Origin: Alloascoidea africana
Lineage: Eukaryota > Ascomycota > Alloascoideomycetes > Alloascoideales > Alloascoideaceae
Reading direction: 5' to 3'
Length of the DNA stretch: 64,000 nucleotides
Assembly: GCA_030581615.1 (NCBI GenBank)
Contig: JAKTTT010000002.1
Location: forward strand, 858,690-922,689
Position numbers and translations under genes: made by a program. Below, piece by piece: positions 5,825-64,000 of the stretch. The notes below the pieces were generated by a model, which was not told the origin of the DNA, made no database searches, and saw only the letters and a list, made by a program, of their open reading frames with translations. Position 1 is the first letter of the stretch. Each line of letters starts with the position of its first letter.

Positions 5825-6681
5825 TTATTGAAGGAGATGGAGGAGAATGATGAAATGGGCATTTGGAGGAGAGAAGGGGGAGCAGGACTTTATATATCGT
5901 TCGTTGCTGTGTGCCTTAAATGACCACTCAGGCCCAGTAACAGTGACAGATATCAGGCTCAGGCTCGGAGAGTATTTGTTTTGTGCGTTGCGATAGGAGA
6001 ACAAAAACTCGCTTTTGCTTTCGCTTTCGCTTTCGCTTTTCGCTTTTCGCTTGTCGCTTTTCGCTTTTTTGCATTCTGGTTGTTCGCTTGTGCTTTTACG
6101 AGGCCTATTTAATCGCTTCCCCTCCCCCGGATAAACAGCACAGACACCCGACGCACAGAACCGTTGGCGGCGGGTAAGTGCCCGGGCGTCGGGTACGCGC
6201 ACCCGGCGGCTGTCTGCGCGGGGCTTCGGTGTCTCTGTTTCTGGTTCTGGTTCTGGTTCTATTTCTATTTCCTGGGGCACGCGCTGGAAACAATCCTCCA
6301 TCGGGTCTCTGGCGAAAGCCAGCTTCACGACTTTCCCGTGCCCCCTGTGCTGGCCTCTGCTGGCCTCCGCTGGTGGTGGCCCTTCGCGCTCGCGTCCGCC
6401 GTCTCTTCCTCCCAGCGAGCAGTTTCGCCTGCTCGCTCTCCTGCTCTGTAGACGTGTTTATGCCATGTAGACTGCTGATCTTTCCCGAAAGCAGAATCCC
6501 GGGCTGGCCAATCAAGGGCCCACGTTTGCGAGGACAGGAGACAACCCCCGTAATTGGCCTCCCCTCATTTTTTTTTCCCTGAGCTTTGCACCGTCCACCT
6601 TCTCCAGAAGAGAACCAGCGTTAGAGAGCGAGCGTTGTGGAATATTAAGTGTAACTAGTGCGTAAAACACAAGAGACGAAA
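5825..6681. promoter_or_regulatory. Divergent promoter of CoA-transferase and dioxygenase
   Basis: An 857-bp region between two divergent start codons. It holds a pyrimidine-rich GCTTTC/GCTTTTC repeat at about 6010-6068, a GGTTCT repeat near 6242-6260 and a GC-rich segment around 6165-6215. Within the GC-rich part is a perfect palindrome at 6190-6205 (CGGGT, six bases, ACCCG). A TATATA lies near 5891 on the CoA-transferase side. Short ORFs on both strands here are composition artefacts. Confidence 0.6.
6190..6205. promoter_or_regulatory. Candidate Zn2Cys6 operator, CGG-N10-CCG palindrome
   Basis: The sequence CGGGTACGCGCACCCG has perfect 5-bp inverted arms. It fits the CGG-Nx-CCG layout bound by dimeric Zn2Cys6 regulators, with the N10 spacing used by Put3-type factors. 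It lies about 480 bp upstream of the dioxygenase ATG and 365 bp upstream of the CoA-transferase ATG, so it could serve both. Function is inferred from pattern only, and the local GC richness raises the chance of a coincidental match. Confidence 0.35.
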
Positions 6682-7608
6682 ATGACCCAGGAGTTCACCG
6701 ACCACGTTATCGCGGCCATCGGGCCCAAGGCCACGCCGCGCCACCGGGCGCTGCTGTCGTCGCTGATTCAACACGTCCACGACTTTGCGAGAGAGAACGC
6801 CGTCACCGTGGACGAATGGATGGCGGCCATGGCGTTCCTTAACCGGATGGGCCAGATCTCAGACGACAAGCGCGACGAGGCGATCCTCGTATCCGACGTC
6901 CTGGGGCTGGAGGCGCTGGTCGACGCCCAGACCAACAGAGCCTGTGCGCACCAGACCTCCTCGTCCATCCTGGGGCCCTTCTACCGCCCGGGCGCGCCCG
7001 TGTACCGCAACGGCGGCTCCATCGTCCTCAAGGACGTGGGCGGCGAGCCCACGCTGGTCTCCGGCACCGTGTCCGACACGGACGGCCGGCCGCTCGCGGG
7101 CGCCATGGTCGAGGTCTGGCAGTGTGCTCCCAACGGCCTGTACGAGCAGCAGGACGAGAACCAGCCCGACTTCAACCTCAGGGGCACCTTCTTCACCGAT
7201 GAGCAGGGCAGATACTCGCTCGTGTGTCTGCGCCCCACGGCCTATCCGATTCCGCACGATGGGCCCGCGGGTCTGCTCCTCCAGATGATGGATCACCATT
7301 CCATGCGGCCCAGCCATATCCACTACAAGGTCTCCCATCCGCGTCACCATCCGCTGGTTACGCAGATCTACGATTCGGAGGACAAGTACGTCGAGGACGA
7401 TTCCGTCTTTGCCGTGAAACAGGACTGTATCGTCCATTTTGCCCCTTGTCAATGCCCTCTCCTTAAAGCAAAGGGCATTGTTTACGAGCTAAACTACAAC
7501 ATTGTCCTTGCTACCGATGAATTGATTCGATCCGCTAGAGATCGAGTCCAGCGCGAACAAAATTTGCGTCAGGCTTCTGCTAAATGTAAGCGAGCTTCCT
7601 ATTTGTAA
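6682..7608 (+). CDS. Intradiol ring-cleavage dioxygenase, hydroxyquinol/catechol 1,2-dioxygenase type
   Basis: A 308-residue protein. I place the start at ATG 6682; the frame is open slightly further upstream but without an ATG. It has the N-terminal dioxygenase segment and the intradiol core: SSILGPFYRPGAP (about 93-106), GAMVEVWQCAPNGLYEQQ, RPTAYPIPHDGP and RPSHIHYKV. The four Fe(III) ligands are visible as Tyr154, Tyr188, His212 and His214. Such enzymes open catechol or hydroxyquinol between the hydroxyls, giving muconate or maleylacetate for the 3-oxoadipate route. The length and the RP-Y-PIPHDGPAG context suit hydroxyquinol dioxygenases better than protocatechuate enzymes, but substrate choice is inferred. 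The ORF is GC-rich in its first two thirds compared with neighbours. No signal peptide is seen; cytosolic. Confidence 0.9.
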   Translation: MTQEFTDHVIAAIGPKATPRHRALLSSLIQHVHDFARENAVTVDEWMAAMAFLNRMGQISDDKRDEAILVSDVLGLEALVDAQTNRACAHQTSSSILGPFYRPGAPVYRNGGSIVLKDVGGEPTLVSGTVSDTDGRPLAGAMVEVWQCAPNGLYEQQDENQPDFNLRGTFFTDEQGRYSLVCLRPTAYPIPHDGPAGLLLQMMDHHSMRPSHIHYKVSHPRHHPLVTQIYDSEDKYVEDDSVFAVKQDCIVHFAPCQCPLLKAKGIVYELNYNIVLATDELIRSARDRVQREQNLRQASAKCKRASYL

Positions 7609-46326: not shown

Positions 46327-48069
46327 ATGATCCTCACCGACCTTCCAGAAGATATCATCGAGCTGGTGATAGAAAAACTACCAGTAGCAGATTTCTACAG
46401 TCTTAGCTTCACTTGTAAAGACCTATCGAAATACTTTTGGAGCTCAAACAGCCACTACAACCACCTTGTTAAAAATGTGCTATTCAATGAAAATCCATTC
46501 ATAAAAAAAGAACCAGACACAAATTTATGGTGTGAAACCGCAGAAAGGTTTACACAGGTTTCTGGAAATCTGAAGAAAACTGTTGACTTCAGTGATCTCA
46601 ATCTATATTCTGCCCCAGGTGCTGGCGAGTGGGCTAATCTCTCCGCAACCAACGGTCTCGATGAGGCCAGGCCAACCAAACGGGCAAACAACATTGTAGA
46701 CGGTATTAGCATTGGAAAATATGGCTGCTTTCAGGTGGACATGAGAAACAGAACCAAGAGATCAATCACCAATAACAAGTATGATGAGCTCACTCTTAAC
46801 GATCTTGGCACTGGCGTCTTGAAGAGGTATCGAAAGAATAGCAACGGCACGAGCAATGGCCTGTTGAGCCTGGTCCCCCGGTCTTACAATGTGAGCGGAA
46901 ACGAGAGACCTGCTTCCAATGTCCAAGCGATGCTCACCAAAGATCTAAAAGACGGGGGAATGATCATATCTTTTGAAATGGTCAGTAGCAGCTATTCCCG
47001 CTATTATTCAGATTCTTCATTGCTTGCCCTTTCCAGCCTTACGTCGATATCTTCACCTGTTTCACACAACTGGCGCTTTGAGCCACCTTGCTTCTTTGCC
47101 GATATGAAGGTTGACTATTTTACATTTGAAAAAACAGCATTTTTAATGACGTTAGATCCACGCAGTGGCTATCCATGTGTCTCTGCATACGAGACCGTAC
47201 CAGCAGAAGCACAAAGAACAGGGTCCTCTCGAAAACTGTGGACAACGACAGTTCAGTATAGAGATCATAAAATTCTGCAAAGCAGTTTCTTTGCGAATGA
47301 ACACTTTGCTTTCTTTATGCTAGAAAGCACTCCACAAAGCACCTACGATAGGAATGACAACAGCTTAATTAATGAGAACCTGCTGTTTGTTCTTTCTACC
47401 GAAACTGGCCGACTTTTAGGCACCTATTCGAACTGTATACTTGACAGTAATAATACACATTCTATGAGATATAAAATAGTCGGTTCAAACGTTTTCTGCG
47501 ATCGCTTCAGCAAATCCGAACGTTTACCTTTTGCTTATGGACTGCACCAAGGAAACTACAGTTTGTTATGCAAACCCTTGACTGAATTTCTGACCGAAAT
47601 GGATACAGAAACTCACTTCAAAATAGTGCAAACCAAATCTGGTAAGGGAAAACTGTTAAAAGCGATTCGTACAGGAGAACAGAGACAATGCAACCGCCGA
47701 AATTTTAATCCAGAATCCAGGGGAATGTCCATTTTGAGCAAATGGAAAGCTTCAAATGCAGAAAAAGCAAGCTTAACGGGATCTCCTTGGAACTTAGTGG
47801 TAACTGTTAGGGAAGGAAAGAACCAACGATGGCTAAACAACAGAATTGTAACTTCTCTTGATGATACATTTCTGACTGTTTATAGATGCACCAATGACAA
47901 TAACCCATTGCAAAAACATTTATGGGCAAATTACCTCTTTGTCTATAATCTAAAGACTTCGGACAAGAGGTTTTACAAGTTTCCATGTCTTGACAGCGCT
48001 AATAACATCGATAAAGACTTTTGCATTCTAGTCGATGAGAAGCTGAATTTTGAGACTCTGTCCGAGTGA
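46327..48069 (+). CDS. F-box protein with conserved C-terminal region, paralog 2
   Basis: A 580-residue protein from ATG 46327. The N-terminal F-box reads ILTDLPEDIIELVIEKLPVA and DFYSLSFTCKDLSKYF. The rest aligns block by block with the protein at 41130-42683: DFSDLNLYSAPGAGEW, LSSLTSISSPVSHNWRFEPP, LLFVLSTETGRLLGTY, KIVGSNVFCDRFSK, PWNLVVTVRE, FLTVYRCTND and NYLFVYNLKTSDKRFYK. It is longer by a loop of about 40 residues (GKLLKAIRTGEQRQ and following) before the PWNLVV block. The two copies are in the same orientation 3.6 kb apart and are strongly diverged, so this is an old tandem duplication or a larger dispersed family. Function unknown beyond a probable SCF role. Confidence 0.78.
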   Translation: MILTDLPEDIIELVIEKLPVADFYSLSFTCKDLSKYFWSSNSHYNHLVKNVLFNENPFIKKEPDTNLWCETAERFTQVSGNLKKTVDFSDLNLYSAPGAGEWANLSATNGLDEARPTKRANNIVDGISIGKYGCFQVDMRNRTKRSITNNKYDELTLNDLGTGVLKRYRKNSNGTSNGLLSLVPRSYNVSGNERPASNVQAMLTKDLKDGGMIISFEMVSSSYSRYYSDSSLLALSSLTSISSPVSHNWRFEPPCFFADMKVDYFTFEKTAFLMTLDPRSGYPCVSAYETVPAEAQRTGSSRKLWTTTVQYRDHKILQSSFFANEHFAFFMLESTPQSTYDRNDNSLINENLLFVLSTETGRLLGTYSNCILDSNNTHSMRYKIVGSNVFCDRFSKSERLPFAYGLHQGNYSLLCKPLTEFLTEMDTETHFKIVQTKSGKGKLLKAIRTGEQRQCNRRNFNPESRGMSILSKWKASNAEKASLTGSPWNLVVTVREGKNQRWLNNRIVTSLDDTFLTVYRCTNDNNPLQKHLWANYLFVYNLKTSDKRFYKFPCLDSANNIDKDFCILVDEKLNFETLSE

Positions 48070-48232
48070 ACACGAACATTAACTACATAATTTTTTTACT
48101 GGTACTTGGGGACATGCTAGACACTCTTTCAATTCGAGCTTATAATTTTGACGAACCTTTACGTGAACATTAATATCATTTTACAATACATAGTCATTGA
48201 AAAAGAATACACACATTTGGGAATCTATTTTG

Positions 48233-51157
48233 CTAGATTTTTGAAATCCCTTGAACCTTTAAATATTTGTTGAAAGCAACGCTACCCCCGCCAAACTTCT
48301 TTAAAATAAGTAGTGCTTTCAAAGAGTCCATTCCAAACTTGTATTTTTGATTGAAGAAGGCAGGGTCGGGAGAAAACTCCACAGTATTTTCTAGCTCGGA
48401 ACTAATCGCATTCGAAATAAGAGCAGCTGTAGTGGCAGCATCTGCTTCGTCGCCAGTATTTCTCAAAGAACCCCGAGAATACTGGAAGTTAAGCGTTGCT
48501 AAGTCGGGCATTCGAGAATCCGGTGGAAAGTTGCTTGAGTGATACAAAGATGTAGAAGACCGTCCTCCTGACCTTCCACTATTATTGAAGTAGGAAACAT
48601 CACTTGAACCAGACTCTAAACCAATCGTAAAAAAGTGATGTAGGCAGATATGCGAAGAAATAGGAATAGAAAGAAAATCCTTGGCTATACTGTGTAGAAT
48701 ACCCCAATATTTGCCTTCATCGCGCCACCAGGCAAAAGGGCCTTTCTCCGTTGCACGAGAATTAGATTCAATATAGGTTATCAAATCGCTCGCATAAAGA
48801 TTAAACTGATGAGCCATTTCTACCACATTTCCATGATCTGAATCTTGTACGCTTACAGAGTTGGCAGATTCATGGCTTTGCGTTCCATATATTACAGGGT
48901 CAAGAAAAGCTGAGTCAATAACATCTGTGGATGTAGTAGAATTTGTGACTGCTGTTGAAGTTGAAGTTGATGGATTGGTTGTTACCAATTGACTTGCCGA
49001 TGAAGGAGGAAGAGGCGCCTTTTCTTTCAATGGCTCTGCTGCCAGGCTGACGTATTTCTCCAAGAACTGGATAATAGGGTTCAGAAAGTCTTCCTGCTGG
49101 GTTTGATTATCTGGGAACGTGGAGTTGATTAAAGAAGGCTGTAATAAAGAACTTAACATAAATATTGGTGAGTTTGCTACCCTGTTGTGGTAACTCTCAA
49201 ATAGCTTCAATGCGGAATCAGCACTATCGGCAATTGCGTCTTCAATGTTTGAAAAAAGATCTAACTTCGACTTTATTGAAAACAAGTGACTATAAATAAA
49301 CCCAGCATTAGTGTATATCAATGCAATGCTACTTGATGGAAGGGAGGTCATCACGAGAAGCTGCTGAATTGGTCGTAGTATCGAGGAAATTGTCAACAAA
49401 GATGACCATTGGTCATCAGTTAAACTAAACTGAGAAGAATTATCCAATGATTCTGAATATTGCTGAATAGAAGCCTTGTATAGTGAAATTAGTTCAGTTA
49501 CTTGAGGAATACATTTTCGGATATCAGTAACCTTTGCTATTTCTGCGAACGGATTGATCATTGTACTAGATGTCGTCTCCAGTGCATTTACCGCACTGCT
49601 GGCACCAGGAGAAGAGCCATGTTCTAAAGAATATGGTAAGGAATAATTGCCATAATTATCACCCAGGTCAATTGGCAGACATTTCAACCAGCGTTCTTCA
49701 TCTTGCGAAATTTGCTTCAAAAAGGTTTCAATTTTCAAAAACACTGAGCGGCATGGAGATTCATCTTTGTCAAACAAACTTGAGACCAGACTGGTGTAAA
49801 CTTGCTCCAAAACGTAGTCAACAGATGAAAACAACGGAAGATCTTGTAGCCATTTTCTCTTCTCTTCCGAAGGGGAAAAATACTCTGTAGCTATCCTAGA
49901 AGTGACATGTTTAATGACTTCGGTTGGATTAGCCACAACTGTCAAGATTTTGTTCTTCATGTTGTAAAAATCAAGCACCTTTACAAGTTTCTCATACAAC
50001 TCGTTTCCAACCTGTTTAGAGGAAAGGTCAATGCCCAAACTGAAAGTTAAAACGTCAAGCACATATAAACATTTTCGGAAATCATTGTCAATGAGCGAAG
50101 CCATAATCACAAACACCGCCTGATTTCTTGATGTAACCCAGTAGTCCAGAGTAATAGTGACGCCAGATTGTACACCACCAATCTTTGACCTTACCTCTTC
50201 CTTATACTGCTCATATGTCTTTGTTGAGTATTGTTCAATAACCGAGGAATTGATATCATGCTCTGCTAAAGAAGGCTGTCCCTTTGCAAGCAAACCAAAG
50301 AAAGAAGGGTTGCAAATATCTTGGAATGAGGTATCGGTAGCCGCTACCAGATCCAAAATCTTGGAAAAAAACTTGTCTCTGAAGCTGGACGTGGTAATGT
50401 CACTTCCAGGCTGACTGTTCTCTGCAGATTTTTCGGTTTTTCTGGACTCTCCCTCAATTTCAACTGGAAAATGGGGTTCTTTATCATAGTAAACCATTCT
50501 AGATTTAGCAGCCCTGGGTTGGACTTTCTCGTCATCTGCAAGAGTCAATTTCTCTCCTTTACTACTCCAATAATAGTCACCATGGTTTCCTTTAACAGAG
50601 AGGTGCTTTTTGAGCTTTGAATTGTTTTCGTATCTTGTGCTCTCCTTAGCAACAGTTCTTCTGCAATGACGACATACCCAAAGCACATCTGAAAAGTCAT
50701 CATTAGCAGGATCATCGTTGCCAACTTTCTCACCAATGAGTTCATAGTGCGTGTAAGTCCAATTCTTTTTCCTTCCAGATTGTACACCTGAATTATGCCT
50801 TTCTATAAACTTTTTGTAACTAGTAGGTAGCTTGGACCTCTTTGGTGTTGATTGTACACCCGCAGATCCTTCCGAATCGTCCCTTTTTGCATTGTATCTG
50901 TTTTCATCTTCAAAGCGTCGTTTGACTCCAGCGGCTACGGCAGCCGAGGCTATAACAGACGCAGAGGCACTATCATGAGCAACCTCGTCTGGATTTGCAC
51001 TGGAGGCGGCTGCGGCGTTGTTCGAAGACGCGATTGCCTTGATTAACGACATGGCCGTCTCGTTAACGTCGTCGGGAACGTCATCATCGATGCGAGCATC
51101 CTTCTCGTGGCCTGGATGCAGAGACGGATGGAGGACACTACTGATATCGTCGTTCAT
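48233..51157 (-). CDS. BED-finger, hAT transposase-derived protein (candidate domesticated gene)
   Basis: An uninterrupted 974-residue protein from ATG 51157. The order is: a low-complexity N-terminus with an acidic start and Ala/Ser runs; a BED-type zinc finger at about 132-200 (Cys162, Cys165, His185, His192); a hAT RNase H-like region starting at TITLDYWVTSRNQAVFVIMA (Asp338 in the first catalytic position); and a hAT C-terminal dimerisation-like region with GPFAWWRDEGKYWGILHSIA and DFLSIPISSHICLHHFF. The usual T-D-N-A motif of the second Asp reads VVANP (Ala409). The SER-x-F-S motif that I take to carry the Glu reads CLHHFFT. So two of three predicted catalytic acids seem lost while the frame is intact. 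No terminal inverted repeats are visible in the flanks. A host function (DNA binding or regulation) is likely but unknown. Confidence 0.8.
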   Translation of the reverse strand: MNDDISSVLHPSLHPGHEKDARIDDDVPDDVNETAMSLIKAIASSNNAAAASSANPDEVAHDSASASVIASAAVAAGVKRRFEDENRYNAKRDDSEGSAGVQSTPKRSKLPTSYKKFIERHNSGVQSGRKKNWTYTHYELIGEKVGNDDPANDDFSDVLWVCRHCRRTVAKESTRYENNSKLKKHLSVKGNHGDYYWSSKGEKLTLADDEKVQPRAAKSRMVYYDKEPHFPVEIEGESRKTEKSAENSQPGSDITTSSFRDKFFSKILDLVAATDTSFQDICNPSFFGLLAKGQPSLAEHDINSSVIEQYSTKTYEQYKEEVRSKIGGVQSGVTITLDYWVTSRNQAVFVIMASLIDNDFRKCLYVLDVLTFSLGIDLSSKQVGNELYEKLVKVLDFYNMKNKILTVVANPTEVIKHVTSRIATEYFSPSEEKRKWLQDLPLFSSVDYVLEQVYTSLVSSLFDKDESPCRSVFLKIETFLKQISQDEERWLKCLPIDLGDNYGNYSLPYSLEHGSSPGASSAVNALETTSSTMINPFAEIAKVTDIRKCIPQVTELISLYKASIQQYSESLDNSSQFSLTDDQWSSLLTISSILRPIQQLLVMTSLPSSSIALIYTNAGFIYSHLFSIKSKLDLFSNIEDAIADSADSALKLFESYHNRVANSPIFMLSSLLQPSLINSTFPDNQTQQEDFLNPIIQFLEKYVSLAAEPLKEKAPLPPSSASQLVTTNPSTSTSTAVTNSTTSTDVIDSAFLDPVIYGTQSHESANSVSVQDSDHGNVVEMAHQFNLYASDLITYIESNSRATEKGPFAWWRDEGKYWGILHSIAKDFLSIPISSHICLHHFFTIGLESGSSDVSYFNNSGRSGGRSSTSLYHSSNFPPDSRMPDLATLNFQYSRGSLRNTGDEADAATTAALISNAISSELENTVEFSPDPAFFNQKYKFGMDSLKALLILKKFGGGSVAFNKYLKVQGISKI

Positions 51158-51581
51158 CTCAGCACGTCGCTTCGCTCTGGCTGGTTCCGTAAGGTTGCGA
51201 TCGCAAGTTTAGGAGTGTGTCTCTTCCGTGTGTCAGAACACCCACACGCCCACCATGCCTGCAGGCGTGGAAATTGACCCGGTAGAGACAAAAGTCCCGA
51301 GTTATCTGATGGGAGAGCAAATTAAAGAGAATAAAACTTCCAGAAAAGGAAGAAATACATGAAAAGTTGATTTAGTAGGAGCTTCGATCATCTCCTTCTT
51401 TTGCTCCTTTGCTGTGGGTGTTGTGTGCAGAGATAGCGACCTACCAATTGATAAGGAAAGAGACCTATCAGACCAAACTAAACCCTCTTATCGCCATTTC
51501 TCTGTGCCGAGCATTTTCGGAATACTAGCTCTCACAAAACCGTTTAAACATTTTGGCTGGCCGTTACCCACTTATTGACGA
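51158..51581. promoter_or_regulatory. Divergent promoter, hAT-derived gene / PQ-loop gene
   Basis: 424 bp between divergent start codons. A GTGTGTC/GTGTGTCAG repeat lies near 51216-51232 and a GCCTGCAGGCGTGG stretch at about 51258-51271. No terminal inverted repeat matching the other side of the hAT-derived gene was found. Confidence 0.5.
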
Positions 51582-52364
51582 ATGGTTTCTGTGGCTGCTA
51601 ATGTTCTCGCGACTATAGGAACAGTGCTATGGTGTATTCAGCTCCTTCCCCAGATTTACTTCAACTGGAAAAGAAAGAACTGTGAAGGCCTTCCACCGTC
51701 AATGCTTTTTTTATGGGCTTTTTCTGGTCTGCCTTTTTCAGTGTATTTTCTGATTCAGGATGCGAGTATACCTTTGAGAGTACAGCCACAGCTGTTCACT
51801 TTTCTCGCCATGGTTGGATGGGCTCAATGTATCTATTATCCACCAATTGACTATGGCCTGAAAAAAACAATGCTGAACGTGTTTGCATTTGTCTTTGTCG
51901 CTCTTGCTTTTGAGTTGCCCAGCATTTTATGTCTTCGACCTGTTTATCGAAGAGGAACTGAGTGGCCAAACCTCATCTATGGCGTATTTGCCTCAATCCT
52001 ACTGGTTATCGGCCTCCTGCCACCCTACTTCGAGCTGGCCAAAAGGAAAGGCAAAGTTGTTGGAATCAACTTTATTTTTCTATTCATGGATAATCTTGGG
52101 GCAATTTTTAGCTTTTTGTCGTTGATCATTGATGATCCTACTTCCGATATCATGGGGATGATCCTCTATCTGCTAGTGATGGTTGTAGAATGGGGCATAT
52201 TTTTGAGTCATATCATATGGATGATCCGTTTTCGTCAGTACTCTCACGGTTGGATATTTGGTTGCTACACTGACGAAGAAATGGCGGCGAAGATAGAAGC
52301 AGAGGAGGCCGAGGCCTTGGAAACTGGTGTAGAAAGGGTCTCGGGAAAGAGCGATCGGAAGTGA
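51582..52364 (+). CDS. PQ-loop repeat membrane protein
   Basis: A 260-residue protein with about seven hydrophobic segments. The first PQ-loop motif is complete (IQLLPQIYFNWKRKNCEGLP, Pro23-Gln24). The second repeat reads LLPPYFELAKRKGKVVGIN, with Pro147-Pro148 in place of Pro-Gln. A lone Asp in the following DNLGAIFSF helix is typical. PQ-loop proteins include lysosomal and vacuolar amino-acid exporters and other small-solute carriers; this one belongs to a fungal branch whose substrate I do not recognise. The C-terminal tail is Glu/Ala-rich (EEMAAKIEAEEAEALE). It is divergent from the hAT-derived gene. Confidence 0.82.
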   Translation: MVSVAANVLATIGTVLWCIQLLPQIYFNWKRKNCEGLPPSMLFLWAFSGLPFSVYFLIQDASIPLRVQPQLFTFLAMVGWAQCIYYPPIDYGLKKTMLNVFAFVFVALAFELPSILCLRPVYRRGTEWPNLIYGVFASILLVIGLLPPYFELAKRKGKVVGINFIFLFMDNLGAIFSFLSLIIDDPTSDIMGMILYLLVMVVEWGIFLSHIIWMIRFRQYSHGWIFGCYTDEEMAAKIEAEEAEALETGVERVSGKSDRK

Positions 52365-52853: not shown

Positions 52854-55800
52854 CTACAGTTGAGGCTCGCCAATAACCTCATCTTTCACTTTCAACATCC
52901 GCTGATAATCTCTCATGACATTAATGTGCGCCCTGACAGCTTCATTCCAAAGCACCTTGACCTGCGAATCTAATTGTATAGCTTCCAAATATACATCAAG
53001 ATCATCTTTTAGCTTTCCAGTTCCAGAGACAAAAGCTTTAGGGTTCATATAATTTAAAATTGTATCCGAATCACCTCGGACCCGACTCTCGTGGTATTCA
53101 TTCATAGATTGCTGATACTCAATCCATTGTTTCATGTAATGTTCCATGCTTGTGATATAAGCGTCCCAGTTTGGCCAAAATTCAGAAGGACTCACTGCAG
53201 TTAATGTTGATGATGGGAGCTGTGGAGCTAGTGGAGGCGTCAGCTTGAAAATAGTCTGCTTTAACCCTAACGACTCCAAGTTGGTTCTTGGTTGTTGCTG
53301 TGTGTGATTCTGAGATTGAGATTCAGAGGCTGAATTATTCTGCGTTCCATCCCAACTGGCAATTCCCGGGCCACTTTTTTCTGAAGATGTGGTTGGCGCT
53401 GCCGGCGATGGCTTAAAAATCCGGGGCAAAGTAGAATTGACTGGTGTAAATGTAGTTTCAAACTTGCCATTCCCACCCTGTTTCATGCCAAAATTGAATC
53501 CAGGGATTTTGGGAAAGGCCTCTTTAATGTCATCTTTACCGTATGTGTAATCTTTTTTAGCACGAGGTTTCGACTTTGGTCTTTCAGTTTTCGAAGGTGA
53601 CACATTGTTTATAGATTCAAAGACATCGTCAAAGTCAAAATTGCCAGTAGTCTGTGTGAAAGGAGGAATATTCTTCAAATCGTTTAGGCTCGTAGTCACT
53701 TTTGACTTTTGTTTGGTACCAGTGCCATTTTCATTTTTGGTGTTCAGGTTGGATCCAGAAGGTGAGCCAAAGTCTGCAAACTTGAAACCAGAGAATGGAG
53801 ATGACGACTTATTAGGAGATGAGATACCGCCATCGGTGGGGAAAAACGACTCATTAGCCTCATCATCTCGGTTATTCCCTCGCTTAGATGGCGAACTCTT
53901 TACTGTAGAGCCCGCAACTGGACGGGAAGGTTTATTGGCACTGGGAGTGCCACGAGAGACAAAAGGGTCATGCTTCTCGGGAGCAAAAGCGGTTGGCCTT
54001 CCGGGAGTATTTGCGTGCCTGTGAAACACTCTCGTCTTTAAAGGTGAATTCGTTCTCCTTGTCGAGCTCGCACTATTCAAAAATGGTTTGAACAACGGAT
54101 CGTTGTATTTGTTATTTGTGGAAGCAGTCCTTGAAGAGCTCGGCGTTGGATTCGCAAGGTTATTCAGTACCTTATTGAAATCGATATTGTCAGGAAACCA
54201 ATTCGATGCCGAACTAAATGGACTAGCAGCCGATGTGTCATGCATGCTAGCATCAGCGTCCTCCATCTCCACCGTATTGTTACCGGAAGCCTCTGAAGAA
54301 TGTGAAGATTGTGGCGATTCCATTTGAGGATTAGCTTCCGTTGCATCTTCATTTGGTTTTCGGTGCTCATAATCTTTTCCCTTTGTTGGCTTGTTCTCTT
54401 TTGAAGTTTTATCCTCTGCAAAAGCAAATTTACCGTTGGAACTAAAAGTATTGTTTTTGAAAGATCCTTGTTGGCTATGCAAAGCTGGATTCAAAGGCGA
54501 CGTATTAAACGGTTTGTAACTTGCCGGCTTAGATGGCGACGGCGTTGACCTTTGTTGCTTATCAAAACCATCAAAGTTAAATCCAGTACTAAAAGAATCG
54601 TAGCTCGAGTTGGAATGATCAGTATTGTATGTTGGTTTTTCAGCCTGTTGCTGAGAAGCATTAGCATTTGTATCAGCCTTAGTCCCAGCAGCCGATTCCG
54701 ACCCAGAACGGGATTGAGGCTTCAACGGCGGTTTAAACAATGGGGATGAAAATTCAAATTTCCCAGACGGTTTACTTGGAGAAGGAGTGTCTGTCTTCTT
54801 AAAATTTTGATTATCTGGAGAGGAGAAGGAGAATCTCGAAGATGTCGGAGTATTAAAGTCAAACCCAGTAGACCCTGAGGGGACAGAGGAGGTTCTACCT
54901 TCCTTGGTCGTCTTGAAAGTAGGCCTTGTTTTTGTGCTTTTGGCTCCGGGAGGACTGAAACTTCCAAATTTAATGTTTGCAAACATGCTCTTTAATTCGT
55001 CATCATTATCGATATCATTAGCAGCGTTATTATTCATTTGACTGGAAGAGGGAACTTCACCATCTTTCTTTAAACCATCAGAAGTCGACTCCCTTTTAGA
55101 GGAAGCTGCTGACTTGCTTCTCCCTTTTGGAGAAACGTAAACGCGTTCACCTTTAAAAGTGAACCGAGGTTTGGTCCCCTCATCTTTCTTTGATGTAGAT
55201 TTAGCATTATCTTCATCACCGTCGCTGCTGTTACTGGTGGCATGCTTATTATTGGGTTCTCCTTCGGTCCAACTAGTCTTTTTTGGTGATGCAGAAGCTG
55301 AACCCGAAGCAGACGGGGCCTGAGAGGTTGAAGATGGAACCTTTACGTTTGGCGATTTCCCAGGATACATTTTCTCTGTAGATCTGTATGCATATGCTGT
55401 GGAAGAAGTTGTCCACTTATCATCGTTAGTACTAGACATAAACGATGTTTCCTTTTCCTTTTCTGCTCTAGCGCTCTTATGTTGAGAGTAGGCACTTTTT
55501 GGAGTGTTATTGTTACTGCTACTTTTGTTGGTTGAACTACTCCTAGTGCTCGATTTGCTTTTTGGCGTCTCACTTCTGTTGGAGTACGAGTTAGCAGGTT
55601 TTGATTTGGGCTTTGATTGCTCTTTCTTATAGAATTGGTCGTATGGTTCCCATGGATCCTCAGTGAAGCGAGTGTATTTCCATTTCTGTTTGGAAGTATT
55701 GTTAGATTTCCCCTTTGTACCAGAGTTGAAAAAATTGGAAGCGCCGCTGGAAAAGTCGCTATCGTCATAAAAAGAAGAACCCGAACCGTTAGAAGCTTGC

Positions 55801-56090
55801 CAGTAACTCTGTTGTTTGGATTTCGAAGAGTTGTAGTTGGCTTTTTTGCTAGACTCGTAAGAAGAAGATTTTCTGGAAAGGTCGTAGACCCGCCTCTTTG
55901 AAGAATCAAGGAGCGTGTCATAGGCCAGAACAATGATCTTGAACTTTTCAACAAATTCTGGATCATTATTATTTTTGTCTGGGTGGTATCTGAGAGCGAG
56001 CTTCCTATAAGACTTTTTGATTTCATCTACAGAAGCCGTTGAGGGCACTTCAAGGACTTTATAGTAGTCATGCTTGGGGGAAGATACCAT
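52854..56090 (-). CDS. Large J-domain protein with long low-complexity middle
   Basis: A 1078-residue protein from ATG 56090. The J-domain is at residues 8-70, with the catalytic HPD at 36-38 ([16 protein letters not shown]) and [15 protein letters not shown] closing helix IV. About 800 residues of Ser/Asn/Lys-rich, low-complexity sequence follow, containing many short F-S-x-P, FDF, FNF and FKFADFGS phrases that recall nucleoporin FG-type spacing but without true FG repeats. A more ordered, probably helical C-terminal region of ~150 residues ends the protein ([32 protein letters not shown]). No G/F zinc-finger region of class I DnaJ is present, so it is class III: a J-domain that recruits Hsp70 to a specialised site. 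The site is unknown. Confidence 0.85.
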
Positions 56091-59248: not shown

Positions 59249-59557
59249 TATTGTCTTCCAAAAAAAAGGGAATCTCCCTGCTGTATATAGTTTTCTTATA
59301 CCATCCAAATCATCTACAAAATAGTAAAGAAAATAGTGGGTATCGTTGAGTATGTCGAGAATCTGTTGAAGAATTCCGAGATCTCAAAGGAAGGACATGA
59401 ATGATCAAAATCAATGATCAAAATGAATTATCAAATAGATCATTCATGACAAGGTTGCCTAAAAACAAACAGATAATATAAATAGAATCTCGTAAAGTAC
59501 AAAAAGAATAAAACGAAAGTTTTTATTGGCAAAATAGGAATTCCTTTACATCTAATA

Positions 59558-59747
59558 TGTGAGAGAACAGAACCTCTGTTCTGAACTCTCAAGTTTATGG
59601 CTCGAAAGATTGACATTAAGTAGCTTAAGAAGAAGAAAACTAAAAACACAAACAAAGTTCTATTTATACTCTTTGGTTTCAGTCTCATTCTTACACACAT
59701 TCTTGAAAATACTGAGCCTTTTGTTTATAAGAATCACAATTCTTACA
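59558..59747 (+). mobile_element. Solo LTR, ~190-bp family, copy B1
   Basis: Runs from TGTGAGAGAACAGAACC to ATTCTTACA (190 bp). It is closely similar to the copy at 62870-63058 on the other strand. It starts 7 bp to the right of the family A LTR. Flanking pentamers (TAATA and ACACA) do not match, so it may be rearranged or old. Confidence 0.7.
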
Positions 59748-59790
59748 ACACAATGTAAGAGTTCGGGCACTCTTACTAGGAACAACCTCC

Positions 59791-60846
59791 TGTTGGAACC
59801 CGGTGTTGCCAGGTCTCCTCTCTGAGACTGGAATTACCGGTAAAACTATCACGAAAGTGATTTAAAAGAAAAACTTGTTATCTTTATTAAAAAGTGGCGA
59901 AAAGATGCCCTTATATAGTCTTCGGCGACTATTATATGTTTGGGTTCACAATGTAGAATCTGGCTTGTATAATTAAAGTACAAATAACAGTCTAAACTGA
60001 GCTTGCCCTGTTCACTAGAAGGGGACAAGTCTCTTCCTTATATATTCGTAACTATCAACTAAACCTTTCCCTTTGTGTTCTAGTCTGTTAGCAACTAAAC
60101 CTTTCCTTCTGCTCTAGTCTTGTGTGAGCTAAGCGACTTTGTAGTCTTTGCGTGACTCAAAGTCTCTTGCACATAGCAACCTTATAACAGCGACAGATAA
60201 ATATGGTATACGAGCAAATTAAAAAGTAAAAGTATTGCTAACAACAAAAGAGTATAGATTGATAGCAATTGAGAAAGAAAAACATAAAGTTAATAAGAGA
60301 CTAACGAAGTAGTTAGTAAAAGAAGATAAAGTAGAGACGACAGAGCAATAATCGTCACATTTTCTCCCCCCTTTCTTCCAAGTCGTCCTCGACTTGGTCG
60401 TTAACCATAGAAGATTGTACCCATGAATTCCACTGGTCAGAAAGAGTTTTCAAGATTTGAGAGTCAGCTTGTGAGAATATCCACAATGGTATGGGTGTAA
60501 CGAGAGTTGGATCGCACTCAGACCAGGTAACATAGGAGAATTCTAGTTCTCTGTTGATTCCTAGCATTGAATTCATTTCATTAGTTCGAACCAGTTGCTC
60601 TTGTTCTGTTTTGGGAGGATTTTTGAGGTAAGCAGGAGACTTGATGAAAGGTTTGATCCATTTCCTATTGATAATCGTGTGTTTCTTAGTTATTGTTGGC
60701 AAGTCTAGTTCCACAGCGTTTTCTCCACAGCGCTTTACAGTTCTAAAGGGACCAAAATAGATAGGCTTGAGTTTGTGAAATCGTCCCCTTTCGATATACG
60801 CATCTTTGTGGAGTAATACATATTTACCGACTTCGTATATCGAAAG
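59791..60846 (-). mobile_element. Ty3/gypsy fragment: integrase C-terminus, polypurine tract and 3' LTR
   Basis: Read on the minus strand, the coding remnant (60846 to 60355) is followed directly by a polypurine tract (about 60360-60377, GAAAGGGGGGAGAAAA). An LTR starts at 60359 with TGTGACGATTATTGC. The LTR probably ends near 59791, where the plus strand reads TGTTGG, giving a TG...CA LTR of about 570 bp; this left boundary is tentative. A TATATA lies within it near 60038. The 5' LTR and most of the internal region are missing. Confidence 0.75.
60355..60846 (-). pseudogene. Ty3/gypsy integrase C-terminal fragment
   Basis: An open frame of about 163 codons on the minus strand, with no start of its own, ending at the stop TGA (60355-60357). 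It contains the integrase C-terminal pattern: YEVGKYVLLHKDAYIERG, LKPIYFGPFRTVKRCGENA, VELDLPTI and NRKWIKPF. This is the 'L-P-x-G-P-F-x-V-x-x' block of gypsy integrases that precedes the element's end. The last codons overlap the polypurine tract. The catalytic D,D35E core is absent. Confidence 0.8.
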
Positions 60847-60955
60847 GGGACGATTTCACAAACTCAAGCCTATCTATTTTGATCCCTTTAGAACTGTAAA
60901 GCGCTGTGGAGAAAACGCTGTGGAACTAGACTTGCCAACAATAACTAAGAAACAC
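60679..60955. repeat. Inverted repeat with 122-bp arms in the integrase fragment
   Basis: Arms 60679-60800 and 60834-60955 are near-perfect reverse complements; I noted one mismatch (GGTCCC against GATCCC). They flank a 33-base centre. The right arm is a plus-strand copy of the integrase C-terminal segment, cut off after the KKH codons. Confidence 0.85.
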
Positions 60956-60960
60956 AGGAT

Positions 60961-61056
60961 TATCAAGAATACGCCATAGAGTTCCAATTACTACTCTCCA
61001 AGATGGGAGAAGACTGGGTCTCGGAGGAATTAACAAGTTTTTCTTCTAAATCCCTT
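60961..61056 (+). pseudogene. Retrotransposon gag-like fragment
   Basis: The plus strand reads YQEYAIEFQLLLSKMGEDWV, then SEELTSFSSKSLP and a stop. The pattern of a helix ending in a fixed F-x-x-G/S-L-P phrase is typical of gypsy-type gag capsid regions. It is joined directly to the right arm of the inverted repeat, so gag and integrase pieces now lie side by side through deletion or rearrangement. About 30 codons only. Confidence 0.5.
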
Positions 61057-61069
61057 CCGTGATACACAC

Positions 61070-61261
61070 TGTTAGAGAACAGAACCTCAGCTCTGAACTC
61101 TCAGGTAGTGGGTTTGGTTCATAAAACTTTCATTAAAGTAACTTGTAGAAAAGAACAAGGAAACTACAGAAACTAACTTTAAATACACAACAGCAGTATT
61201 CATTTTACACATGTGACCAAATGTGCTATCAAAACAAAGAGTAAAAATCATAATTCTTACA
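61070..61261 (+). mobile_element. Solo LTR, ~190-bp family, copy C1
   Basis: Runs from TGTTAGAGAACAGAACC to ATTCTTACA (192 bp) and pairs with the copy at 63489-63680 on the other strand. Flanking pentamers are CACAC and CACAA (4 of 5 matching). The next LTR (family A) begins 6 bp to the right. Confidence 0.7.
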
Positions 61262-61266
61262 CACAA

Positions 61267-61627
61267 TGTAGCGAAACCCCTATTTTGCCAATATTAACTT
61301 CTTTTTATTTTAACTTTACGAGATTCTACTTATAATATTCGTTCACTTTACGAGGATCTACCTATATTTGTCTGTTTATTTTAAAGAACCTTTTTATGAA
61401 TGAGTTGTCGATCATTCATCTGATTATTCAGGACCTTATTGGGATATATCGGAACTCTTCAACAGATTCTCGATATACAGACTGATTCCCACTTTATTGA
61501 TTAATCTATTTTGTTATTTTCCTTTTTGAAGACAGAAGACTATATTAATGGGATGAAATCCCCTATTTTTACAAAAGGAACAATAAAGATATTTTGAATA
61601 AGAATCCCCTTTTTAGAATCTATTACA
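61267..61627 (+). mobile_element. Solo LTR, family A copy 2
   Basis: 361 bp from TGTAGCGAAACCCC to TCTATTACA on the plus strand. It is the inverted partner of the copy at 61631-62060, with which it shares about 230 bp at near identity. The two lie tail to tail with only GTG between them. Confidence 0.7.
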
Positions 61628-61630
61628 GTG

Positions 61631-62060
61631 TGTAAAAGACACTAACGAAGGGGATTCTTATTCAAAATATCTTTATTGTTCCTTTTGTAAAAATAGGGGA
61701 TTTCATCCCATTAATATAGTCTTCTGTCTTCAAAAAGGAAAATAACAAAATAGATTAATCAATAAAGTGGGAATCAGTCTGTATATCGAGAATCTGTTGA
61801 AGAGTTCCGATATATCCCAATAAAGTCCTGAATGATCAGATGAATGATCGACAGGTCATTCATAACAAGGTTCTTTAACATAAATAGACAAAGATAGGTA
61901 GATCCTTGTTAAGTAAACGAGTCTTACAAGTAGGATCTCGTAAAGCGAAAGAATATTATAAGTAAAAGCTCGTAAAGTGAAAGAACATTATAAGTAAAAG
62001 CTCGTAACGAGAAAAACAAAAAAAAGGAGTTAATATTGACAAAGTAGGAGTTCCGTTACA
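61631..62060 (-). mobile_element. Solo LTR, family A copy 3, next to tRNA-Val
   Basis: 430 bp; on the minus strand it runs from TGTAACGGAACTCC to TCTTTTACA. It is longer than the other copies because of a tandem repeat near 61940-62010 (AAGTAAAAGCTCGTAAAG units). Its boundary is only 11 bp upstream of the tRNA-Val gene, the position favoured by tRNA-targeting LTR retrotransposons. Confidence 0.7.
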
Positions 62061-62071
62061 ACAGCATCAGT

Positions 62072-62145
62072 GGTTCGATGGTCTAGTTGGTTATGGCATC
62101 TGCTTAACACGCAGAACGTCCCCAGTTCGATCCTGGGTCGAATCA
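62072..62145 (+). tRNA. tRNA-Val (AAC)
   Basis: 74 nt. The acceptor stem GGTTCGA pairs with TCGAATC, followed by discriminator A. The anticodon loop is TTAACAC within stem TCTGC/GCAGA, giving anticodon AAC. The T-arm has CCAGTTCGATCCTGG with a perfect stem. A-box TGGTCTAGTTGG and B-box GTTCGATCC are intact, and TTTTTT follows as a Pol III terminator. It has no intron and is very close to yeast tRNA-Val(AAC). Confidence 0.97.
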
Positions 62146-62486
62146 ACTTTTTTATTACTAGAAAATGTCTCCTTATCAAAAAAATATTTGAAACCTACCA
62201 TAATATACTACTCATTCCAAATGATCTAGTATTTTACACCTTCTATACCGATAAAGCTGGAAGGTATCAAGCTTTTACAGTATATCAACGACTAGAAGAT
62301 CAGAAATAACTCTAACATAAAGTTTGAACTTTTCCTTATCTCCAACAGGAATTAACATCAATTTTTGAGCTCTAAAATCTCATTACTCGAGTTCCACAAA
62401 CATCTCTTCTGGAACCCAGTTTCATAGGTGCTGCTATTTCAGTTGTCAATCTTACAAAAAGATAAGGCTGATTATCAAAAATCAAC
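62146..62486. other. Spacer between two tRNA genes
   Basis: 341 bp with no LTR or gene recognised. The ORF at 62070-62309 overlaps the tRNA and is not real. Confidence 0.5.
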
Positions 62487-62558
62487 CTCCGAAACGGGGA
62501 ATTGAACCCCGATTTGCCCGGTGAGAGCGGACCGTGCTAGCCATTACACTATTTCGGA
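62487..62558 (-). tRNA. tRNA-Glu (CTC)
   Basis: 72 nt on the minus strand. The acceptor stem TCCGAAA pairs with TTTCGGA, with discriminator G. The anticodon loop reads CTCTCAC in stem GGTCC/..., giving anticodon CTC. The T-arm CGGGGTTCAATTCCCCG is perfect. A-box TAGTGTAATGG and B-box GGTTCAATTCC are intact. No intron. It faces tRNA-Val. Confidence 0.94.
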
Positions 62559-62869
62559 ATGAACTCTCATTGTAAGAGAAATGATTCTCTTGATCTCTGA
62601 TTGGTTCTATTTAGTTTTAGTTATTCACATTCGCTCTCAGTTACCTTTCTCTTGCCTTAAGTTTACATTCAGTAACTACAAGCGATTATTCTAATAATCC
62701 TTTAGTTGCTCACTTAGTTTCTAGTTCTATATAAAGAGGCCTTTCTCCCCAAGTCTTGGGAGGAGGCATCAAACACTGAATACATTTTCTTTCCTGTTTC
62801 TTCTGAACCTTTGAGCCCTGTTTATCCCCTTGTAGTAAGTGAATCCCCTGGCATTCATCTTACACTCAT
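62559..62869. other. Sequence 5' of tRNA-Glu, LTR-like promoter features
   Basis: About 310 bp. CTATATAAAGAGGCC near 62729 looks like a TATA box, as found in LTRs, but I could not define TG...CA ends. It may be another degraded LTR; no gene seen. Confidence 0.35.
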
Positions 62870-63058
62870 TGTAAGAATTATGATTCTTATGAACAAAAAG
62901 CTCAGTATATTCAAGAATGGTGTAATAATGAGACTGAAGCCAAATAGTATAAATAGAACTTTGTTTGTATATTTAGTTTTCTTCTTCTTAAGCTACTTAA
63001 TGACAATCTTTTGAGCCATAAACTTGAGAGTTCAGAACAGAGGTTCTGTTCTCTCACA
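62870..63058 (-). mobile_element. Solo LTR, ~190-bp family, copy B2, with target duplication
   Basis: 189 bp; on the minus strand it runs from TGTGAGAGAACAGAACC to ATTCTTACA. It is flanked by a perfect 5-bp direct repeat CTCAT (62865-62869 and 63059-63063), which fixes both ends and shows it is an integrated LTR that lost its internal region by recombination. Confidence 0.88.
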
Positions 63059-63063
63059 CTCAT

Positions 63064-63338
63064 CTTGAGAGTCAGTCAGGCACCTGCAACGATGGGATCG
63101 AGGGAAGGGGTGAGATCAGGGAAAGGTGGTTATGGGTGAGTTCGAAAGAAAGGCTTACACTTGTTAATAGTAATGTAAAAAGTTGTAGAAGTTATTTTTC
63201 TCTTTTTATTTTCTTGTCCTCTCTATATCACTAGCAACAAGAGGTTTTTATATAGTTTTCAGCCTTCAGCGGCTATTCCTAATCATCTAAGTCAAAACTA
63301 AATATTACAAATCAAAACCATCATCATCAGTTGTCACA
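63064..63338 (-). mobile_element. Possible LTR related to the gypsy 3' LTR
   Basis: On the minus strand, TGTGACAACTGATG at 63338 resembles the gypsy LTR start (TGTGACG). Further along, CTATATAAAAACCTC forms a TATA-like site and GCCGCTGAAGGCTGAAAACTAT parallels the gypsy LTR's CGCCGAAGACTAT. The other end is not defined. Probably a solo or partial LTR of a related family. Confidence 0.4.
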
Positions 63339-63488
63339 ACTCCAAGTCATACGACTCGACTGTATAACTGAATAAAGATCATATGTTGGCAAGGCCAGCA
63401 CGAGCTAGCTGGCAGGGGTCCTGATGGTTAGACTAGGGTTCCCAGCGTGAACCCTTGAAGGTTTGGTGAAGAAACCTTCACACTCATG

Positions 63489-63680
63489 TGTAAGAATTCT
63501 GATTCTTACTCTTTGTTTGTATCGCACAACTGGTCACATGTGTAAAATGACTACTGTTGTTGTGTATTTAAAGTTAGTTTCTGTAGTTTCCTTGTTCTTT
63601 TCTACAAGTTACTTTAATGAAAGTTTTAAGAACAAAATCCACAACCTAAGAGTTCAGAGCTGAGGTTCTGTTCTCTTGCA
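63489..63680 (-). mobile_element. Solo LTR, ~190-bp family, copy C2
   Basis: 192 bp; on the minus strand it runs from TGCAAGAGAACAGAACC to ATTCTTACA. CATG occurs immediately on both sides (63485-63488 and 63681-63684), a probable 4-bp target duplication. It pairs with copy C1 on the other strand. Confidence 0.75.
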
Positions 63681-64000
63681 CATGGTAGCGATGCTTAAAG
63701 GGGATCCCGATGCCAGCATCACCAAGGTTTACCTCTATTTTGTTTTTGATCTTTGACTGTGGGACAAGGAGTCGCCACCAAGATAAAGGGGTAGCCACCA
63801 AGAATGTGGGCCCATATTTTTACACATTAACCATCACCCGTGGGATATCCAGAAAGAGAATCGCCATAGAAGGTGACGGAGTTGGCCGTTAGAATGCGGG
63901 CTCTGAAGAAAAATGGTTTGAATGGAATTTTATTGAAGAAAGTTGGAAAACCTTTTGTGTTATGGTATTGCATCCCTGACGAGGACAGATTTGAAGGTTG
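63681..64000. other. Right edge, unassigned
   Basis: 320 bp with a GCCACCAAGAT / GCCACCAAGAA direct repeat near 63774 and 63795. No gene or defined LTR boundary; may continue as part of another element beyond the window. Confidence 0.4.

Follow-up and report, generated by a model that had tools for sequence, protein, structure and literature searches.

The question raised by this locus is whether a long open reading frame of evident transposon ancestry still encodes a transposase, is the relic of one, or has become a gene of its host. The frame lies in a stretch of 64,000 nucleotides from Alloascoidea africana, which we refer to as the window, and an earlier note, made from the letters of the sequence, had described it as an intact hAT-derived gene that had apparently lost two of its three catalytic acids. 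We conclude that its product is probably a catalytically dead, hAT-derived host protein, which would serve as a nuclear DNA-binding multimer rather than as a nuclease. The features on which this conclusion is based are collected in Table 1.

The frame is intact, as had been claimed, and runs open on the minus strand from its ATG through 974 codons. Its codon score is 0.096, compared with values of -0.106 to 0.034 in the five other frames of the same segment, which contain from 36 to 79 stops each. This score falls inside the range of 0.003 to 0.228 found for 17 other genes of the window and favors the reading of a host gene, but the component of the score that reflects synonymous choice is small (0.017), which counts against that reading. 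Among solved chains, the RPL7 encoded in the window scores highest with that of K. lactis and next with that of S. cerevisiae. The sole CTG codon of the RPL7 gene in the window aligns with a leucine common to K. lactis and S. cerevisiae, and the standard genetic code is therefore used. Two further genes of the window may be recorded here. The segment from 52854 to 56090 encodes a protein of 1078 residues with a DnaJ domain at its N-terminus and no further match above the cut-off. An intradiol (hydroxyquinol/catechol) dioxygenase gene at 6655-7605 has a GC3 of 0.77, compared with 0.36 to 0.56 in 17 other genes; its best match among 31 bacterial loci shows 43% identity, and its top match in the PDB is 8r2v.

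Table 1. Features of the hAT-derived gene and its flanks, in window coordinates.
Feature	Position	Strand	Basis
Gap of 163 bases separating the stop of the hAT-derived gene from that of the convergent F-box gene 46327-48069	48070-48232	none	no TIR found
hAT-derived ORF, ATG to stop, 974 codons	48233-51157	minus	frame open; codon score; GC3 0.38
hAT dimerisation segment (WW...SIPISS...CLHHF), residues 805-842	48632-48745	minus	PF05699; Hermes score reached by 0/1000 query shuffles
Leu839 at the catalytic Glu position (Hermes E572)	48641-48643	minus	2/3 MAFFT modes and hhalign
RNase-H-like first half (putative), residues 330-430	49868-50170	minus	Hermes alignment; DUF659 13.0 bits, sub-threshold; low-confidence model b-b-b-a
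Ala409 at the Hermes D248 position	49931-49933	minus	2/4 alignments (Smith-Waterman, MAFFT genafpair)
Asp338, kept first catalytic Asp (Hermes D180)	50144-50146	minus	4/4 alignments covering the position
CCHH finger, BED-like, C162-C165-H185-H192	50582-50674	minus	zf-BED 15.1 bits, sub-threshold, cut segment 105-260 only
Basic, nuclear-localisation-like stretch (KRR...AKR, PKRSK), residues 79-109	50831-50923	minus	pattern scan; predicted function
Gap of 424 non-coding bases shared by the hAT-derived gene and the divergent PQ-loop gene 51582-52364	51158-51581	none	no TIR found

As judged from the sequence, the evidence for hAT ancestry appears to reside mainly in the C-terminal segment of the protein, with the region of the Asp-x-Trp motif adding support. 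When the whole 974-residue protein was scanned, the Pfam family Dimer_Tnp_hAT (PF05699) matched with an E of 0.0028 and 17.9 bits, under the cut-off of 21.4, and when residues 770 to 870 were excised the match rose to 22.0 bits, over this cut-off; none of eight shuffles of the excised segment matched the family. Compared with the housefly transposase Hermes, the C-terminal segment outscored 1000 of 1000 query-segment shuffles, and hhalign aligned this segment only, with an E of 0.016, missing the Asp region. These results bear out the hAT-like dimerisation region of the earlier note. The resemblance of the Asp region to Hermes is modest and is counted against the preferred reading: 20 of 1000 shuffles of the query segment scored at least as high as the observed match, as did 30 of 300 shuffles of Hermes compared with the whole protein.

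The BED zinc finger claimed for the N-terminus must be qualified. The four ligands are present, but the zf-BED profile was matched at noise level (E 0.024, with a cut-off of 20.6) and only when the segment had been cut out, and this too weighs against the preferred reading. In the same segment, SMI1_KNR4 scored no lower (16.1 bits, E 0.018). A cut segment covering the Asp region matched DUF659 at an E of 0.083, the cut-off for this family being 34.7 bits, and SP24 reached 14.3 bits in that scan; the DUF659 match is likewise at noise level and counts against the preferred reading. Neither zf-BED nor DUF659 was listed for the whole protein even at an E of 10; in the cut segments these sub-threshold matches occur in the expected order. 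Among the 36 other open reading frames of the window that were scanned, at thresholds of 0.01 or 0.1, no hAT or BED family was listed, and a sequence search of the PDB with the 974-residue protein gave just two matches, both weak, with E values of 0.72 and 1.5. A single-sequence AlphaFold model of residues 250-974 was rejected, with a pLDDT of 35. A second model, of residues 320-436 (pLDDT 52), has its elements ordered b-b-b-a-a at low confidence, and none of its 588 Foldseek matches reached an E of 0.001. The weak matches include RuvC and hexokinase, which have RNase-H-like folds; most of the others do not. Both models are too poor for the placement of individual residues.

The catalytic residues were considered in alignments with Hermes, made with Smith-Waterman, with three modes of MAFFT (genafpair among them) and with hhalign. 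We take the catalytic positions of Hermes to be D180, D248 and E572, and the letters at these positions in its PDB chain are D, D and E. The corresponding stretches of the 974-residue protein read L337-D338-Y-W340, A409-N-P-T and C838-L839-H840-H841. The first-position Asp that had been proposed in LDYW is upheld, since D180 falls on D338 in every alignment that covers it; Hermes W182 falls on W340 with Smith-Waterman and in all three MAFFT modes. The substitution of the second Asp by Ala409 stands in part: no alignment places an acid there, but two of the four relevant alignments, both from MAFFT, set D248 on Ser420 instead, and this variable placement is counted against the preferred reading. 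Much the same applies to the claim that the motif bearing the Glu now reads CLHH. This was recovered with Leu839 as tabulated, but the third MAFFT mode sets E572 on A908, and the Smith-Waterman match ends just before the Glu position. Every Hermes alignment that we made lacked an acid at the second-Asp and Glu positions, and the complete D/D/E triad is thus absent, with D338 kept, A409 or S420 in second place and L839 or A908 in third. A CxxH downstream of the second Asp is missing as well, the one CxxH of the whole protein being the CLHH at 838, and Hermes W319 finds no Trp partner in any of the three MAFFT modes. A further point that counts against the preferred reading is that two of these modes set R586 and R588, the basic residues with which Hermes contacts its TIRs, on K938 and K940. 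The first K or R past L839 is R862, and it is on this residue that the third mode sets R588.

It may be argued that the protein still works as a transposase and that its active site, being displaced or of an unusual kind, is set wrongly by sequence alignment. It is uncertain where the second Asp belongs, and acids are located nearby, at E413 and E848. However, hhalign runs without a gap from the SIPISS anchor to Leu839, no CxxH lies between the two segments, and no TIR pair was found in the 3-kb flanks. We consider an active enzyme to be very improbable.

The claim that terminal inverted repeats do not flank the gene was confirmed for the 3-kb flanks, in which six settings yielded no TIR pair of 10-16 bp accompanied by an exact 8-bp duplication. 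Inverted repeats that match exactly over 10 to 14 bp were about as frequent in these flanks as in shuffled sequence. The gene is single in the 64-kb window, with no second copy of the protein encoded there, which favors the preferred reading. Counted against it, no relatives were returned from the viral contigs and genome contigs that were searched, nor from the viral contigs when a hAT consensus served as the query. An alternative is that the locus is a dead or stranded transposon copy, devoid of host function, the frame of which has not yet decayed. That the copy count covers only the 64-kb window speaks in favor of this idea. Set against it, the frame remains open over 974 codons although both acids, the CxxH and the W319 position have changed, no TIR pair was found, and only short gaps separate the gene from its two neighbors. 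A stranded copy is therefore unlikely.

The earlier note had also stated that all other transposon-related sequences of the window are broken. This was checked in part, and two short fragments were found. A short open reading frame at 58195-58614 matches HTH_psq with 22.2 bits (Pfam cut-off 20.4) and is possibly the remnant of a pogo-like transposase. The second fragment, at 60358-60855, matches SH3_Tf2-1 (5.7e-08), presumably the end of a Ty3/gypsy-type integrase, and lies within a cluster of inverted repeats that extends from 59300 to 63700. Two near-palindromes, one at 61309-61950 (94%) and one at 60668-60966 (98%), lie in this cluster, together with arms of longer range that pair 59558-59696 with 62920-63058 and 61074-61263 with 63487-63676, and with genes for tRNA-Val and tRNA-Glu. 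The cluster could consist of nested LTR remnants or represent a centromere-like region.

As a whole, domestication is the most economical reading, because the catalytic residues have been lost while the gene is intact in a host-like setting. The earlier note had reached domestication by comparison with the Kat1/Roc genes of Kluyveromyces; the catalytic loss and the host-like setting sustain that part of its argument, but it had missed VID22/ENV11, the nearest precedent. In the sequence of events that we propose, a budding yeast would have turned a whole hAT transposase gene into one of its own genes, whose product lost the acids needed for DNA cutting but retained the dimerisation scaffold and an N-terminus that resembles a zinc finger. 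The product would likely enter the nucleus, bind DNA and act as a multimeric protein of chromatin or transcription in the manner of VID22/ENV11, presumably to the benefit of the host. Judging by the motifs that survive, namely the finger, the basic stretches of residues 79-109 and the dimerisation segment, a nuclear DNA-binding scaffold would be the simplest reading. By analogy, and as a point against the preferred reading, it should not be taken for granted that the 974-residue protein contacts DNA with its finger, because the binding of G4 DNA by Vid22 is independent of its BED domain, according to the available text of PMC8682794. Scans for G4, TTAGGG and Rap1-like motifs found nothing inside the gene or in the gap on either side of it.

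The closest published precedent of the 974-residue protein is VID22/ENV11 and not Kat1. In the portion of PMC2675101 available to us, it is suggested that VID22/YGR071C (ENV11) may go back to an older hAT domestication, and orthologues are described at the syntenic position in many yeasts, SAKL0H03916g being one example; the yeast relatives of this kind are typically about 900 residues long and occupy one locus kept in synteny. The parts available of two other papers give Vid22 a BED finger (PMC8682794, PMC9272169) together with an RNaseH-like domain (PMC8682794), and describe a complex of Vid22 with Env11 and Tbf1 (PMC8682794, PMC9272169). One form that our preferred explanation may take is that the gene is the VID22/ENV11 orthologue itself, a fast-evolving, ancient domesticated hAT gene with Tbf1 as its partner in chromatin. 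The general plan of the two proteins, with relatives of about 900 residues and a BED finger and RNaseH-like domain in Vid22, is in keeping with this (PMC2675101, PMC8682794, as far as their available text extends). For direct comparison we used a provisional Vid22 sequence, which was checked at its ends and in its finger only. This sequence matches zf-BED with 15.3 bits as a whole protein, also sub-threshold, close to the value for the segment in Table 1, and the spacing CX2CX19H is common to both, with C87, C90 and H110 in Vid22 corresponding to C162, C165 and H185. Against orthology, overall similarity to this sequence, with residues 641-790 masked, does not exceed chance, with 24 of 300 shuffles scoring at least as high, and in four matched regions from 489 to 1737 of 2000 shuffles equaled or exceeded the observed score. 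The strongest blastp match has an E of 0.005 and the strongest hhalign match an E of 0.03; both align the N-terminal part of one protein with the C-terminal part of its partner, and a score about as high was reached by one of 12 hhalign controls. Further, the hAT dimerisation match has no counterpart in the provisional Vid22 sequence. Nor was shared gene order seen: ROM1/2, ELO3, UPF3 and SMD1, which we take to be the neighbors of VID22/ENV11, were not seen among the recognised genes of the 37 open reading frames scanned, although synteny can decay between families. Orthology with VID22 is possible, at rather less than an even prospect.

The same comparison can be turned around. More hAT sequence is kept in the 974-residue protein than in the provisional Vid22 sequence, which favors the reading that a yeast hAT element was domesticated independently in this lineage, with no relation to VID22. 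The spacing from the finger to the first Asp is 176 residues, near that of Kat1 (180, from C130 to D310) and greater than that of Hermes (129, from C51 to D180), but spacing by itself is weak evidence. We regard an independent domestication as a real contender, if somewhat less than an even prospect. Narrower than this, because a chromatin role is added, is the proposal that the whole length of a yeast hAT was domesticated apart from VID22/ENV11, RSF1 and Kat1, with the catalytic centre lost, the finger and oligomerisation scaffold kept, and the product now a chromatin protein; we advance it tentatively. The lineage and role had been called distinct in the earlier note, and this is not established, because VID22/ENV11 is a closer published precedent.

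A literature search made without the species name found no description of a gene recognisable as 48233-51157, which is a weak negative, and in the main text available of PMC10799480, a screen for co-opted transposable elements across the fungal kingdom, the word hAT does not appear. A second search, on ROC together with Kat1, returned no paper that uses the word ROC. An intact yeast gene that descends from a transposase, with a cutting site that looks destroyed, is a useful case, for which VID22/ENV11 provides a precedent. A protein that is recognisably hAT and lacks the acids could be an intermediate on the path from active hAT transposases to Vid22-like chromatin proteins. Should it prove to belong with VID22, the date of the VID22 domestication can be narrowed; if it falls outside, it would represent a further independent co-option in a lineage that is poor in DNA transposons.

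It remains to compare the gene with known systems. VID22/ENV11 shares with it a proposed hAT origin, relatives of about 900 residues and the status of a host gene kept in synteny (PMC2675101, in the part available), and differs in that the hAT dimerisation match is confined to the 974-residue protein and that similarity to the provisional Vid22 sequence is at the level of chance. RSF1 (YMR030W) of S. cerevisiae was counted, with VID22/ENV11, as a published yeast precedent in favor of the preferred reading. According to the available text of PMC2675101 it is a truncated domesticated hAT with a dN/dS of 0.22, and is therefore likewise a hAT-derived yeast regulator under constraint, but it has 376 residues, is without the region that most resembles hAT and, per its authors, has no BED finger. 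Kat1 of Kluyveromyces lactis resembles our gene in being a hAT-derived yeast gene with a BED domain and a similar spacing from finger to Asp. As described in the accessible part of PMC4763223, however, Kat1 is catalytically active and drives MAT switching, requiring D310, D328 and E895 for DNA cleavage and its CxxH for hairpins; its gene also carries a programmed -1 frameshift (PMC5499181, in part). Kat1 thus retains the acids and the CxxH and cuts DNA, whereas the 974-residue protein appears, on the alignments, to be without acids at the second-Asp and Glu positions. DAYSLEEPER/SLEEPER and the ZBED genes are hAT-derived host genes too, but belong to plants and vertebrates and represent separate domestications, as far as the sources available to us describe them. 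Finally, Hermes aligns with the 974-residue protein in both the C-terminal dimerisation segment and the Asp-x-Trp motif, but is itself active in transposition and has its catalytic acids as well as TIRs.
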